A stretch of DNA of 64,000 bases. Source: Sphingobium sp. TKS (lineage in GTDB: Bacteria; Pseudomonadota; Alphaproteobacteria; Sphingomonadales; Sphingomonadaceae). This document shows, piece after piece, positions 26,568 through 32,400 of the stretch (its first letter is position 1; each line of letters starts with the position of its first letter). The notes beneath the pieces were generated by a model. It was not told the DNA's origin. It searched no databases and saw only the letters and a program-made list of their open reading frames with translations. The DNA lies in the NCBI RefSeq assembly GCF_001563265.1, contig NZ_CP005083.1, positions 3,289,001-3,353,000 on the forward strand. The letters run 5' to 3'. Position numbers and translations under genes: made by a program.

Positions 26568-26653
26568 CGCGGCTTGCTGGTTCGGGTGGAGAGCGGGGGA
26601 CTGTCAGGAATTTCGTGTGCGACGAGGCATAATGGGGAACAAGGAGACCCGGT

Positions 26654-27877
26654 ATGTCACGACGCAAAGAACCCTCGATACCGAACGACATTCTCGATCA
26701 GCTGCTTGCCGGCACTGACGCGGCCGCGGCGCTCAGCCAGGGCGGCCTGCTCGATACATTGAAGAAGGCATTTGCCGAACGGGCGCTCAATGCGGAGATG
26801 GATCACCATCTTGGCCAGGAGGAGCAAGGGAACAACAGCCGGAACGGCTATGGCCGCAAGACGGTGACGACCGACGGGGGACGGATCGAGATCGAGGTGC
26901 CGCGTGATCGGGCCGGCAGTTTCGATCCGCAGCTGATCGCCAAGTACCAGCGACGCTTCCCTGGCTTTGATGACAAGATCATCTCGATGTACGCGCGTGG
27001 CATGAGTACCCGGGAGATCACCGGGCATCTGCGCGATCTGTACGGGATCGACGCCTCGCCCGATCTGATCAGCACGATCACCGACGCGGTGCTGGAAGAG
27101 GTTGCAGCCTGGCAGCAACGCCCGCTGGACCCAGCCTATCCGCTGGTTTTCTTCGATGCGATCCGGGTCAAGATCCGCGACGAAGGCATGGTCCGCAACA
27201 AGGCGATCCATATTGCCCTGGGCGTCATGGCCGACGGCACCAAGGTGGTCCTGGGGCTATGGCTGGAACAGAATGAAGGCGCCAAGTTCTGGCTGCGCGT
27301 CATGAACGAACTACGCAACCGCGGCGTCGAGGATATCATGCTGGCCGTCGTTGACGGTCTGAAGGGCTTCCCCGACGCCATCACCGCCGTCTTCCCCGAA
27401 GCGATGGTCCAGACCTGCATCGTCCATCTGCTGCGCAACTCGATGGATTTCGTGGCATGGAAAGACCGTAAGGCGCTCGGAACGGCCCTGAAGGCCATCT
27501 ACCGTGCTGTCGATGCCGCGGCCGCCGAGGAAGCGCTGACGGCCTTCGAAGCGAGCTTCTGGGGGCAGCGCTATCCTGCCATCGGCCAGAGCTGGCGTCG
27601 GGCATGGCCCGAGGTCATCCCATTTTTCGCCTTCCCCGACGAAGTCAGGCGGATCGTCTACACCACCAATGCCATCGAGGCCTTGAACTCCAAGCTTCGT
27701 CGCGCTGTTCGTGCGCGGGGCCATTTCCCCAATGATGAGGCGGCCACCAAGCTGCTCTATCTGATCTTGAACCGATCGGAAAAAGAGTGGAAAATGCCGC
27801 CGCGCGAGTGGAACATGGCGAAGGCGCAATTTGCCGTTCTCTTCGGCGAACGCTTCATCAGGGCCATGACGGCCTGA
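26654..27877 (+). CDS. IS256-family transposase (mutator type)
   Basis: 407 residues, full length. Mutator-type transposase: N-terminal DHHLGQEEQGNNSRNGYGRK, catalytic blocks VFFDAIRVKIRDEG (D), AVVDGLKGFPDAI (D) and VYTTNAIEALNSKLRRAVRA (E), and the C/H-containing CIVHLLRNSMDFV. Good SD (AGGAG) before ATG 26654. Apparently intact, so the element may still be able to mobilise IS256-type ends in trans even though its own right repeat is interrupted. Confidence 0.95.
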   Translation: MSRRKEPSIPNDILDQLLAGTDAAAALSQGGLLDTLKKAFAERALNAEMDHHLGQEEQGNNSRNGYGRKTVTTDGGRIEIEVPRDRAGSFDPQLIAKYQRRFPGFDDKIISMYARGMSTREITGHLRDLYGIDASPDLISTITDAVLEEVAAWQQRPLDPAYPLVFFDAIRVKIRDEGMVRNKAIHIALGVMADGTKVVLGLWLEQNEGAKFWLRVMNELRNRGVEDIMLAVVDGLKGFPDAITAVFPEAMVQTCIVHLLRNSMDFVAWKDRKALGTALKAIYRAVDAAAAEEALTAFEASFWGQRYPAIGQSWRRAWPEVIPFFAFPDEVRRIVYTTNAIEALNSKLRRAVRARGHFPNDEAATKLLYLILNRSEKEWKMPPREWNMAKAQFAVLFGERFIRAMTA

Positions 27878-27918
27878 TGGTCAACCGCCTCGCCGCACAC
27901 GAACGTATGGCCCGCCCC

Positions 27919-28151
27919 GTTTGCAAGAGGATTTTACGTTGTTCTGATCAGTCTGCGTCAACGTATACGGTCTCATGGGTGAACCCATGGCCAAGATGGA
28001 CATCCGCGCGATTGGGGCTCCATAAATTCCGCGGTATCAAGTACCGTTCGTGTGCTCGGGCTCTCCAAACGCCGGTCGACTGTCAGGCCATCTTCTCGAT
28101 CCTTCCCGCAAACCTCTTTGGCCACCGCGCGCTGGCGTGCGGCCGATCTGA
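27919..28151 (-). ncRNA. Predicted bridge/seekRNA of the IS1111-type element
   Basis: Non-coding segment between the transposase stop and the subterminal repeat. It contains TCCATAAATTCC (28019-28030), identical to the right element/target junction (29254-29265), and CGTTCGTGTGC (28045-28055), the exact reverse complement of the left junction (27895-27905). The two lie 14 nt apart around a hairpin GGTA-tcaag-TACC. Same orientation as the transposase gene assumed. This is the layout expected of the guide part of the RNA that selects targets for IS110/IS1111 transposases. Exact RNA ends cannot be seen. Confidence 0.7.
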
Positions 28152-29186
28152 TCAGGCAGCCATGCAAGCGTGCCCGCGTTCAAAGGACTGATCCTTGCGC
28201 AGGACAGCCCACGCGATCCGTGCCAGTTTGTTGGCCAGCGCCACCACGATAGCATTGCGATGTACGCCTCTCTCGATCATCGCCTTCAGCCAGTGACCGA
28301 GAGGCGTGTTGCTCTGGGATAAAGACGGCAACGCGGCTCTTGCACCGTGAATGAGCAGGGTACGCAAATAGGTGTTGCCGCGCTTGGTGATCCCGAACAA
28401 TCGCGCCTTCCCTCCGGTGGTGTGCTGACGCGGGACAAGTCCCAGCCAGGCCCCCAGGTCCCGAGCTTTGGCAAAAGAGCTCGCATCGCCGACTGCCGCC
28501 ACCAGCGCGGTAGCATTGAGGACACCGATTCCCGGCACCGATATGAGCCGGCGCATGCTTTCATCCTGGCGAGCCAACGCAACAAACTCCCCGTTCAGCG
28601 CGTCGATCCGTGCATTAAGCTCCTGCCATTCGGCACGCAAATCCGCGACCATTTGACGCATCCGCGACGATAGGCTTTCCTCCCCATCGCCCAGTAACGC
28701 ATCCACGCCCATTTCCAGTTTGCGGCGACCGGCTGCAAAGATCACGCCGCGTTCGAGCAGGAAAGCCCGCAATTGGTTGATCAACATCGTACGTGATGCC
28801 ACCAACCGCGAACGAGCTCGGTGCAGACTCTGAATATCCAGCTGCTCCTGGCTCTTGAGTTCGACAAACCGCATTGTCGGGCGCGACGCAGCTTCGGCGA
28901 TCCCTTCGGCATCTCGATCATCGTTCTTCTGGGCTTTAATATAGGGGCGAACATATTCGGGCGACATTAGCCGGATCTCGTGTCCTTGCGCTGCGAACAG
29001 CCGCCCCAGATGATGCGCACCGCAGCACGCCTCCATCGCAATTACACAGGCTGGGAGCTTGCGCACATAGTCGATCAGACCCTGACGGCGCATTGATCGA
29101 CGCACCACCACCGCGCCGTTACCGTCCACGCCTACCACACTGCAAACGTTCTTGCCCAGATCAACGCCAAGGATCACAATAGACAT
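28152..29186 (-). CDS. IS110-family transposase (IS1111-type)
   Basis: 344 residues. DEDD RuvC-like N-terminal domain: D9 in GVDLGKN, E52 in AMEACCGAHH, and the DDRDAEGIAEA block with acidic residues at 89-92. C-terminal Transposase_20 domain: ISVPGIGVLNATALVAAVGD, GAWLGLVPRQHTTGGKAR and LFGITKRGNTYLRTLLIHGA, which carries the conserved region around the catalytic serine in this family. Appears intact. Family members act with a short guide RNA made from the element's own non-coding end. Confidence 0.95.
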   Translation of the reverse strand: MSIVILGVDLGKNVCSVVGVDGNGAVVVRRSMRRQGLIDYVRKLPACVIAMEACCGAHHLGRLFAAQGHEIRLMSPEYVRPYIKAQKNDDRDAEGIAEAASRPTMRFVELKSQEQLDIQSLHRARSRLVASRTMLINQLRAFLLERGVIFAAGRRKLEMGVDALLGDGEESLSSRMRQMVADLRAEWQELNARIDALNGEFVALARQDESMRRLISVPGIGVLNATALVAAVGDASSFAKARDLGAWLGLVPRQHTTGGKARLFGITKRGNTYLRTLLIHGARAALPSLSQSNTPLGHWLKAMIERGVHRNAIVVALANKLARIAWAVLRKDQSFERGHACMAA

Positions 29187-29293
29187 CGGTCCGCTCCTTT
29201 CCCTTTTCGAGCACCAGCATCATATCCGATGCCGGGGAAAAGGGGCGGGCCATTCCATAAATTCCTGACAGCCCCGAGAGCGGAGATCATTTC

Positions 29294-29374
29294 CGTCATC
29301 CCAGCGAAAGCTGGGATCTCAGGCGATAGCGCACGACCTGGCCTCACGAGATCTCAGCTTTCGCTGGGATGACG
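29294..29374. repeat. REP-like inverted pair (CGTCATCCCAGC family)
   Basis: 27-bp arms CGTCATCCCAGCGAAAGCTG... (29294-29320) and its reverse complement (29348-29374) with one mismatch, 27 bp apart. Each arm itself folds (CCAGC-gaaa-GCTGG). Same family as 15577-15659. Located between the right end of the IS256 element and the 3' end of dnaE2. Confidence 0.85.
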
Positions 29375-29407
29375 ATTGTTGGCGTTCACTCCTGGCCATT
29401 TCCATCC

Positions 29408-32400
29408 TCAATGAAAATCCCGCGATTGCGGCAAGATCCGCACATTGCGCGGATGCCCTGAGGCACGTGCATGAGGCTTGCGAGAAGGCTCCTCCACACC
29501 TGTTTGCGAAAGCCGCCCCAACTCCACCGTCCGATCATGCACTCGGGCAGCCATCAGGTGGACGACTCCCTCCTTGCTGCGCTGCACTTCCCCTTCGACC
29601 AGCATCAGCCGCGACGCCATGACCGGCCGCCGCTGCATTTCGAACAATCGCGCCCAGAGCAGGATGTTGGTGATGCCCGTCTCATCCTCGATCGTAATGA
29701 AGACCGCATTGCCCTTGCCCGGCCGCTGTCGCACCAGCACCACGCCGGCCGTCTTCACCAGCGTCCCGTTTTTCACCGCCGATGTCTGCGCGCAGCTCAG
29801 CACGCCCTCCGCCGCGAAGACCGGGCGCAGGAATTGCATCGGATGCCCCTTGAGCGACAGCCGCGTCACCAGATAATCGGCCTCGACATGCTCTGATAAC
29901 GCCATGGCGGGCAGCATCGCATCCGGCTCATCGCCCAGTTCCCGCGCCTTGGCCGCGGCGAACAGGGGTAATTCATCCGAAGGCGTCCGCCGCGCTTCCC
30001 AGAGGGCAGCCCGCCGGTCCTGCCCCAGCGACCGGCAGGCGTCGGCGTCCGCCAGCAACCGCAAGGCCCGCGCCGGCAATCCCGCCCGCCGCGCCAGATC
30101 CTCCATAGTGGCAAACAGCCCGTCCGCCCGCGCCGCGACCAGTTGCTTCGCCCAATCCTCGCGAAAACCATCCACCTGCCGTAAACCCAGCCGCAGCGCC
30201 AAGGCCCGCCCCTGCCCCTCGCCCCGCTTGCCGTGCCGCGATCGCAGCAACGGTTCGAGCGCATTGTCCCAGCCGCTCATGTTCACATCGACATCATGCA
30301 CGGTGACGCCATGCTCCCGCGCATCCCGCACGAGTTGCGCCGGGGCATAGAAACCCATGGGCTGCGAATTCAGCAGCGCGCAGGCGAACACGGCGGGCTG
30401 GTGGCATTTGATCCAGGCCGAGACATAAACCAGCCGCGCGAAGGACAGCGCATGGCTTTCCGGAAAACCGTAACTGCCGAACCCCTCGATCTGCTTGAAG
30501 CAGCGCTGGGCGAACTCCGCCTCATAACCGCGCTCGACCATGCCCTTGATCATCTTCTCGCGAAAATGATGGATGGTGCCGACATTGCGGAATGTCGCCA
30601 TGGCGCGACGGAGCCGGTTGGCGTCCACGTCGCTGAAATCGGCCGCAACGATCGCCAGCCGCATCGCCTGCTCCTGAAACAGCGGCACGCCCTTGGTCTT
30701 GTCGAGGATTTTTTCCAGCTCGTCCTTCGGCCCATGGTCCGGCGCGGGCGAGGGATAGGTCACCTTTTCCTCTCCACAGCGCCGGCGAAGATAGGGATGG
30801 ACCATATCGCCCTCGATCGGCCCCGGACGGACGATCGCCACCTGGATGGTGAGGTCATAGAGGGTGCGCGGCTTCAGCCGTGGCAGCATGTTGATCTGCG
30901 CCCGGCTTTCCACCTGGAACACGCCGATGCTGTCGCCCTTGCACAGCATGTCGTAGACGGCATCGTCCTCCGCCTCCATATCGACCGTCAGTTGATGGTC
31001 GCCCAGCCCCTGCTCGCGCATCAGGTCGAAGGCCCGGCGGATGCAGCTCAGCATCCCCAGCGCCAGCACGTCGACCTTCATCAGGCCGAGGGCGTCGATG
31101 TCATCCTTGTCCCACTCGATGAAGCTGCGATCCTCCATCGCCGCATGGTGCAGCGGAACCGTCTCGTCGAGCCGGTTCTGGGTCAGCACGAAGCCGCCCA
31201 CATGCTGCGACAAGTGACGCGGAAAAGGCCGATGCAGCAACTGGTCGACAATGGCCTTCAACTGCACGATCTGCGGATTGTCGAGCGCAAAGCCCGCCTC
31301 CACGATCCGCGCATCGCCCATGTCGCCGGAATAGCTGCCCCAAACCGTGCTGGACAGGCGCGTCGACACATCCTCGCTGAGGCCCAGCACCTTCGCCACT
31401 TCCCGCACGGCGCTGCGCGAACGGTAATGGATGACGGTCGCGGCGATCCCGGCGCGATGGCGGCCATAGCGCTCATAGATATATTGCATGACCTCCTCGC
31501 GCCGCTCATGCTCGAAATCAACGTCGATATCGGGCGGCTCGTTGCGCTCTTCGGATACGAAGCGGGAAAAGAGCAGGTCATGCTTGCGCGGATCGACGGA
31601 GGTCACGCCCAGCAGGAAGCAGACCATGCTGTTCGCCGCCGAACCCCGGCCCTGGCAGAGGATGCCCTTCGTCCGGGCAAAGGCCACGATGTCGTGAACG
31701 GTCAGGAAATAATAGGCATAGTTGCGCTTGGCGATCAGTTCGAATTCCTGCCGCAGCGATTCACGCACCTTCCGGGGAATGCGCGGACCATGGCGGGCAT
31801 GGGCGGCCGACCAGGTCAGCTCCTCCAGCCATTGCTGCGCCGTCCAGCCCTCCGGCACCGGCTCATGGGGATATTCATAGGCAAGCTGGTCGAGCGTGAA
31901 ATGCACCTGACTTAAGAAACGCCCGCTTTCCGCCACCGCCTCCGGACAATCACGGAACAGATGGGCGATTTCGGCAGGGCTATGGACATGCCTCTCCGCA
32001 TTCGCCTCCAACAGGCGCCCTGCTTTGGCGATGCCAGTGCCTTCGCGGATGCAGCTCAGCACATCCTGCAAGGGACGCTGCGCTGGACTGGCATAGAGGG
32101 CGTCCATGGTCGCGAGCAAAGGCACGCCCGCCGCCGCCGAAAGCGCCTTGAACCGCGCCAGCCGCCGCGCATCCCGTCCATCCCGACCCAATGCCGCCCC
32201 CAGCCAGACCCGGCGCGGCGCCAAGCGCGACAATCGGACCAGAAGCCCCTCCAGATCGGCCGGAGGCGGCGGCGGCACAAGGCTGAGATGGCCCTGCCTG
32301 ATCGCCTCCTTCGGCGGCCGGTCATCATAATCATACTCCACCGGCTTGCGATGCGCCGTCTGCTCGGTCGCGGTGGAACCGGGCATCACGATCAACAGCA

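Follow-up and report, generated by a model that had tools for sequence, protein, structure and literature searches.

Why should one insertion sequence of Sphingobium sp. TKS lie inside the terminal repeat of another, and what chose that position? The locus was analyzed in a window of 64,000 nt, the whole stretch of DNA to which the positions below refer unless a contig is named. The outer element belongs to the IS256 family, and the inner one is called element A. The outer element and the target site comprise the following features.

26597..29275, plus strand: IS256-family element carrying element A in its right terminal inverted repeat, 1322 bp when uninterrupted
26654..27877, plus strand: IS256-family transposase, 407 aa (PF00872, E 2.6e-137)
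26589..26596, no strand: left copy of the 8-bp target duplication of the IS256 element (GAGAGCGG)
29276..29283, no strand: right copy of the same duplication
27895..27903, no strand: target half predicted to be read by guide 1, GCACACGAA on the plus strand (empty-site comparison)
29261..29265, no strand: target half predicted to be read by guide 2, ATTCC on the plus strand (empty-site comparison)

The genome (6.2 Mb) holds four uninterrupted copies of the IS256 element, 1322 bp each, and its 32-bp terminal repeats are identical at 30 of 32 positions. These four copies provided the empty site, CCGCACACGAAATTCCTGACAGCCCC. Comparison with it placed element A 15 bp inward from the tip of the right terminal repeat, with no bases added. 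The insertion lies inside the terminal repeat and the 8-bp duplication still flanks the composite of the IS256 element and element A on both sides; therefore, element A is the later arrival. The exact 14-bp target GGAATTTCGTGTGC occurs intact nine times in the genome, and all nine occurrences are in ends of this IS256 element. Element A itself was found as one copy in its own genome, among 94 genomes of the genus and among 397 sampled genomes of the family, and its own target preference therefore rests on one insertion. Beyond the right duplication, an imperfect hairpin repeat (TCATCCCAGCGAAAGCTGGGATCT...) dispersed in the genome occupies 29284-29382, and the region 29240-29420 has 62 genome matches on both strands, itself included. 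Three weak Rfam microRNA matches at 29284-29382 were false and came from this dispersed repeat.

Element A was delimited as follows; in transposase orientation, its left end is at 29260 and its right end at 27904.

27904..29260, minus strand: element A, IS1111 family, 1357 bp (inverted repeats, extensions and empty-site comparison)
28152..29186, minus strand: DEDD transposase, 344 aa (PF01548 and PF02371 above cut-off)
29242..29253, minus strand: left subterminal inverted repeat ATGGCCCGCCCC, perfect over 12 bp
27907..27918, minus strand: right subterminal inverted repeat GGGGCGGGCCAT, perfect over 12 bp
29254..29260, minus strand: 7-bp left terminal extension TTATGGA, from the repeat to the empty-site boundary
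27904..27906, minus strand: 3-bp right terminal extension ACG, from the repeat to the empty-site boundary

IS1111 transposases have 330-350 aa with PF01548 and PF02371, which agrees with the 344 aa and both domains found here, and inspection of the translation revealed the C-terminal motif GL-P----S(T)G as GLVPRQHTTG. The repeats match over 12/12 bp, within the 11-13 bp of the family. The extensions are of the 7/3-bp type, at empty-site boundaries that carry a 2-bp TT ambiguity. A non-coding region of 233 nt extends from the transposase gene downstream to the right repeat, and comparison with the uninterrupted IS256 copies revealed no target duplication, the 2-bp TT being readable either way. 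By those IS1111 criteria that sequence can address, element A is a member of the family. The initial annotation had recognized an IS1111-type element, and the Pfam domains, motif, repeats, extensions and non-coding region bear this out.

The non-coding region contains copies of both insertion junctions. The 12-nt TCCATAAATTCC at 28019-28030 is identical to the right junction (29254-29265), and the left junction (27895-27905) recurs as its reverse complement, the 11-nt CGTTCGTGTGC, at 28045-28055. The 14 nt separating them contain a GGTA/TACC hairpin. All of this had been described in the initial annotation, and every coordinate was verified. In dinucleotide shuffles of the 233-nt segment, a 12-nt match arose in 2/4000, an 11-nt match in 7/4000 and both in 0/4000, and the paired matches are not due to chance. 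Written in transposase orientation, the RNA reads 5'-GCACACGAA-CGGTACTTGATACCG-C-GGAAT-TT-ATGGA-3'. Its GCACACGAA segment is complementary to the right target half (9/9), and its GGAAT-TT segment has the same letters as the left target half with the core TT (7/7). Element A thus contains two segments that match both target strands, with the complement of the top strand first. This agrees with the guide order reported for IS1111 seekRNAs, a top-strand complement followed by a bottom-strand match (PMC11187229). The segments concerned are the following.

28047..28055, minus strand: predicted target guide 1 (9/9 against the empty site; covariation with flanks)
28032..28046, minus strand: hairpin between the two target guides (helix 5, columns 55-72; 4/5 pairs changed on both sides)
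28024..28030, minus strand: predicted target guide 2, the left target guide, 5'-GGAAT plus TT core, with the same letters as the top strand of the left flank and core (7/7 against the empty site; covariation)
28080..28087, minus strand: a third match, CTGTCAGG, conserved scaffold and not a guide

The earlier proposal of target halves of 9 and 5 nt proved correct, since both are identical to the halves of the empty site in the four uninterrupted IS256 copies. The remaining part of the long match, the bases from the end of the element, lies outside the target. This left-extension part matches 7/7 in element A, and across 45 aligned elements mostly just the first 4-5 bases match without interruption, so that it looks like similarity between scaffold and extension and not target reading; we rejected it as a part of the target guide. 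The weaker third match at 28080-28087, which had been taken to read the right flank, is real as a match. However, it lies within a AGATGGCCTGACAGTCG-like scaffold motif that relatives also carry beside other flanks, so that CTGTCAGG was rejected as a guide.

Relatives were gathered by their transposases, through a scan of genome contigs (80 of 94 loci kept), searches of family, class and genus genomes, and plasmids. The first set went from 82 rows to 52 with recognizable ends and 45 non-redundant elements, element A and a paralogue included, 44 of them distinct. The non-coding region could be aligned in all 45; the scaffold is conserved and the guide positions are variable. In permutation tests, which do not fully remove relatedness among the elements, guide 2 matched its own flank at 4.11/5 positions versus 1.52 for swapped flanks, and guide 1 at 5.57/7 versus 3.63 (n = 44; 0/20,000 permutations each). 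With poly-A guides removed (n = 16), the values for guide 1 were 5.62 and 2.97 (0/20,000). The fit of guide 2 was 5/5 in 22 elements, 4 in 10, 3 in 8, 2 in 3 and 1 in 1; some relatives therefore fit their sites poorly (at most 3/5 in 12/44). When each guide pair was represented by one row (37 rows), the own flank was best or tied for best in 15 cases for guide 1 and 26 for guide 2. TT starts the right flank in 42 of 44 elements and likewise begins the left extension, and so behaves as a core dinucleotide; owing to TT, the exact cut in element A is ambiguous by 2 bp.

A wider set, which included element A, IS4321 and IS5075, was reduced from 106 matches to 102, 95 and finally 89. The six left out of the 95 had unreliable repeat calls (L113, L072, L135, L086, L137 and one of two in L051). 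In this set, the left target guide scored 7.67 with its own flank versus 5.30 with swapped flanks, and the right target guide 7.02 versus 5.34 (0/5000 each). The covariation of guides and flanks among transposase relatives, which the initial annotation had proposed as a test, was thus seen in both sets. A 32-nt guide segment of element A, with at most 3 mismatches allowed, was found once among the 94 genus and 397 sampled family genomes, in its own genome. That sole match is the element A copy, and the same segment beside unrelated flanks, named beforehand as the case that would speak against guide function, did not occur in these genomes. The closest RNA regions on plasmids are at most 85.6% identical to that of element A.

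Several related copies were observed. The left end of L215, at a contig start, is 96% identical to that of element A and adjoins a different flank (CACACTAGCGTGAT); its guide region lies beyond the contig end. A paralogous IS1111 element, L028 (contig C1:3509779-3511135 of the own genome), is 75% identical to element A and carries the guides GCAAAAAAA/TTCCC, which were also found in copies at several T-runs in three other genus genomes and three plasmids. A broken third IS1111 copy lies at C1:935924-941034, and two weaker matches to the RNA model described below (66.8 and 34 bits) were obtained in the own genome, which also has entries at C1:288157-288312 and C1:3493381-3493537 for these matches.

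The same region was modeled as an RNA with the following extent.

27949..28093, minus strand: predicted seekRNA/bridge RNA scaffold, 145 nt (covariance model, 142.9 bits)

At E values up to 1, this was the single match of the covariance model in the window (27949-28093, 142.9 bits); the model was built on 42 sequences, element A and 41 relatives, and hence element A was scored by a model that contains it. The own genome contains five matching places including element A, and 38 more distant loci contain 25, including IS4321 (52.2 bits) and IS5075 (50.1 bits). The RNAalifold consensus of the 42 sequences has 32 pairs, and on 41 distinct rows 94.7% of cells were paired. Of these pairs, 18/32 changed on both sides, in 159 cells, versus shuffled means of 12.7 and 45.9 (0/500; 41 rows), and a control with slid partners gave far lower both-side change. 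The scaffold therefore shows strong compensatory change among relatives, contradicting the possibility, raised earlier as grounds for rejection, that no RNA structure is conserved here. An Rfam search at a loose threshold returned no match to a bridge-RNA family. The minimum-free-energy fold of element A was no better than that of shuffles (z -0.74) and differs from the consensus; folding of single sequences was uninformative for element A and for the paralogue.

These results bear on two other explanations of the junction matches. The matches could be ordinary repeats left by events at the DNA level, such as captured flank copies or a duplication upon insertion, without guide function; the 12-nt match does span 7 bp of the element's own end, as a copy of a junction would. 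However, relatives with other flanks carry different segments at the same scaffold position, matching their own flanks, and the guide segments lie within a covarying fold, so we consider this origin very improbable. It is similarly hard to credit that the transposase protein alone reads the target and that guide-like segments are merely co-inherited with target choice. Relatedness among the elements could yield some such association, which the permutation test does not remove, but in many of the listed pairs the transposase genes are 84-86% identical and yet the guides differ at at least 3 positions together with the flanks. In ISEc11, moreover, removal of the non-coding region abolished circle formation and transposition, and its supply in trans restored both (PMC11187229). 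Given the conserved scaffold, the guides that track their own flanks and the paired changes, the target guides of a seekRNA/bridge RNA very probably lie at 28047-28055 and 28024-28030. The idea that guide RNA and target can be read from one insertion is supported by the empty site, covariation and compensatory change.

Each RNA of the 89 elements was also compared with its own and other elements' ends in four orientations, and a further segment was found in element A.

27960..27966, minus strand: predicted left donor guide ATACGTT, identical to the right end together with the core (27902-27908)

The copy of right end plus core in the RNA scored 7.25 with the own end versus 5.49 with swapped ends (0/5000; n = 89) and sits near the RNA 3' end in a GCCGG-A.A....-GCA-like context. 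Of the 89 elements, 77 have a copy of at least 7 nt, and element A is one of them. These copies comprise 14 distinct 7-mers, which vary with the DNA end; element A has ATACGTT, IS4321/IS5075 have ATAGATT, and ACACATG and ACAAGAG are among the others. The 45 elements without the majority 7-mer gave 7.04 versus 5.10 (0/5000). Twelve elements lacked a donor 7-mer (L176, L067, L060, L145, L143, L136, L091, L132, L080, L158, L161 and L164), some of them with doubtful end calls. This covariation suggests that a left donor guide is likely across the sampled family, and ATACGTT probably recognizes the circular donor junction. For a right donor guide the signal was weak (5.18 versus 4.94, 10/5000), and its candidate, CCAT, is also part of the outer stem. 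TCCAT (27996-28000) was unsupported in this role, given the weak swap test and the pairing of CCATCT with AGATGG in the consensus. Potential donor-binding nucleotides had been reported earlier from predictions in IS1111 orthologues (PMC11208160).

Taken together, we hold with a probability of roughly 93% that element A is an IS1111 element whose seekRNA/bridge RNA, encoded downstream of the transposase, chose its site. Direct observation covers the anatomy, the empty site, the conserved RNA fold and three guide segments that covary with DNA of the target or the donor. For RNA production, transposase binding, RNA-directed strand exchange and the circle intermediate, we infer from published IS1111/IS110 work how insertion would proceed. 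The transposase and the RNA of element A would excise the element in circular form. The donor guide would read the circle junction, the two target guides would read both target strands, and strand exchange would take place at the TT core. The outcome would be the insertion seen here, which lacks a target duplication and lies 15 bp from the tip of the IS256 right repeat. The motif CTTGC stands beside the right repeat of element A (27919-27927, minus strand). In 75 of 89 elements it occurs no more than 40 nt from the right end repeat, and its commonest distance from the element end is 17 nt (38 elements). CTTGC is a possible -35 box; with it, a circle-junction promoter of the kind reported for ISEc11 might form.

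We further examined what the relatives had inserted into. L040 (Sphingopyxis flava), with a transposase 81% identical to that of element A, is inserted in another member of the IS256 family, within the left terminal repeat and a single base from the position homologous to that of element A; the guides of L040 follow its own IS256 target. The survey covered 59 distinct sites of relatives, 54 of them with an open-reading-frame fragment at the site. A transposase-type domain adjoins the insertion at 32 of these 54, mostly at A-runs, or at 29 of 54 without L061, L063 and L073, which rest on a helix-turn-helix only (L061 below the Pfam cut-off); the sites are not all independent, as several share one IS3 or IS630 subfamily. 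Left-side fragments had transposase-type Pfam matches in 24 of 48 cases. Right-side fragments, scanned where one existed (none for L044 and L098), gave eight more among sites without a left match (L073, L048, L054, L042, L122, L182, L129 and L040). One fragment was scanned per side, and hence matches can be missed. Control fragments 1.15-1.9 kb away at the same loci, nearly all on the left side, gave one transposase in 24 (Fisher test of 24/48 versus 1/24, p = 6e-5). The other domains in these fragments were those of reverse transcriptases (two), a phage integrase, TraC and LysR (one each); if the first two kinds are also taken as mobile, the control becomes 4/24.

Grouped by domains, 16 sites were IS3-type, all at runs of 5-7 A, and 9 were IS630-type, 8 of them at such runs; the ninth, L051, has another IS1111 end as its right flank. 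Six were of the DDE_Tnp_1/DUF772 (IS4/IS5) type, three at AAAA(A)GGGG and one at AAACGGGGG, the remaining two lacking an A-run. L040 is the IS256 site among the 32. Examples of relatives at A-runs of IS3-/IS630-type genes or at A-G stretches of IS4/IS5-type genes are L041, L043, L118 and L121. Such A-runs in IS3- and IS630-type genes probably serve programmed frameshifting. In left-side fragments, HTH_21 began at residues 44-55 and DDE_3 at residues 20-31 relative to the insertion; the matched domains thus tend to begin at similar distances, so that the insertions fall at comparable positions within the genes, separating the helix-turn-helix part from the catalytic part. A further copy of the target close to the insertion would point to terminal-repeat targeting, and such copies were sought. 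Among the best 16 rows, element A was strongest (29/32 versus a best of 21 in 20 shuffles), and L150 (25 versus 20), L136 and L049 (23 versus 19), L075 (21 versus 19) and L059 (20 versus 19) likewise scored above the shuffles of their own sequences.

Two readings of this pattern were weighed. The lineage of element A may comprise RNA-guided IS1111 specialists on other insertion sequences, a reading on which we regard the odds as even. Its guides would address conserved, functionally important positions in other families: the A-runs that separate helix-turn-helix and catalytic parts in IS3-/IS630-type genes and are probable sites of frameshifting, the A-G stretches in genes of the IS4/IS5 type, and IS256 terminal repeats. 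It would re-target through guide change in a fixed scaffold and spread by parasitizing, and usually breaking, abundant repeated mobile DNA while host genes are spared. It is also quite possible, though we hold this more tentatively, that poly-A guides simply prefer T/A runs and that insertion-sequence genes are struck because A-runs cluster there in GC-rich genomes, without selection for such targets. The multi-copy GCAAAAAAA/TTCCC group would fit this, as its copies occupy T-runs in a variety of settings, among them a TrbI gene, with no transposase in the scanned fragments. Against it, the second guide often suits a particular family, AGCCA at IS3-type and AGGGG at DDE_Tnp_1-type sites, and element A and L040 read IS256 ends that lack a long A-run. 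A strict specialization, in turn, is opposed by the guide pair CCAAAAAAA/CGTCT, which occurs both at IS630-type sites, where its fit is good, and at IS3-type sites, where its fit is poor, and by the same GCAAAAAAA/TTCCC group. A literature search over titles and the beginnings of abstracts, with few subscription papers, showed among the matches listed no IS1111 element that targets IS256 ends or the A-runs of other insertion sequences. If specialization on other insertion sequences is true, natural RNA guidance places a parasite within other parasites and disables them.

Every IS1111 insertion stores its own guide-target pair, so natural guide-target-donor triples could be read from genomes in bulk. 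Such triples would give rules for guide length, tolerated mismatches, the core dinucleotide (TT here) and the donor guide, and the RNA-guided mechanism of IS1111 is of interest for genome engineering. The initial annotation had included neither the donor guide nor the targeting pattern of the relatives, and had not recognized the target as part of an IS256 element.

The guide system as such is already known, and element A adds a new target to the IS1111 seekRNA/bridge-RNA kind. IS4321 and IS5075, both of the IS1111 family, reportedly insert in the terminal repeats of Tn21-type elements, according to a 2003 paper. Like them, element A lies inside the terminal repeat of another transposable element, and the same RNA scaffold and a donor guide were detected in both (L171 and L172). 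Unlike element A, they have another target and other guides, and their transposase is 39% identical to that of element A. Element A resembles ISEc11, ISPa11, ISKpn4 and ISPst6 in its subterminal inverted repeats with 7/3-bp extensions, in the non-coding region downstream of the gene, in having two target segments ordered top before bottom and in its lack of target duplication, but differs from them in its target, an IS256 terminal repeat, and in its own guide sequences (PMC11187229). The passages of PMC11187229 cited here contain no description of a donor guide; covariation for one was found in the present analysis. The covariation of the donor guide and the pattern of insertion sequences within insertion sequences go beyond the accounts in PMC11187229 and PMC11208160, as far as the passages cited here extend. 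Element A also resembles the IS621/IS110 bridge RNA in having target guides on both strands, an overlapping core and a donor guide (PMC11208160). It differs from the IS110 group, in which, as described there, the RNA is mostly upstream and the guide order is reversed.
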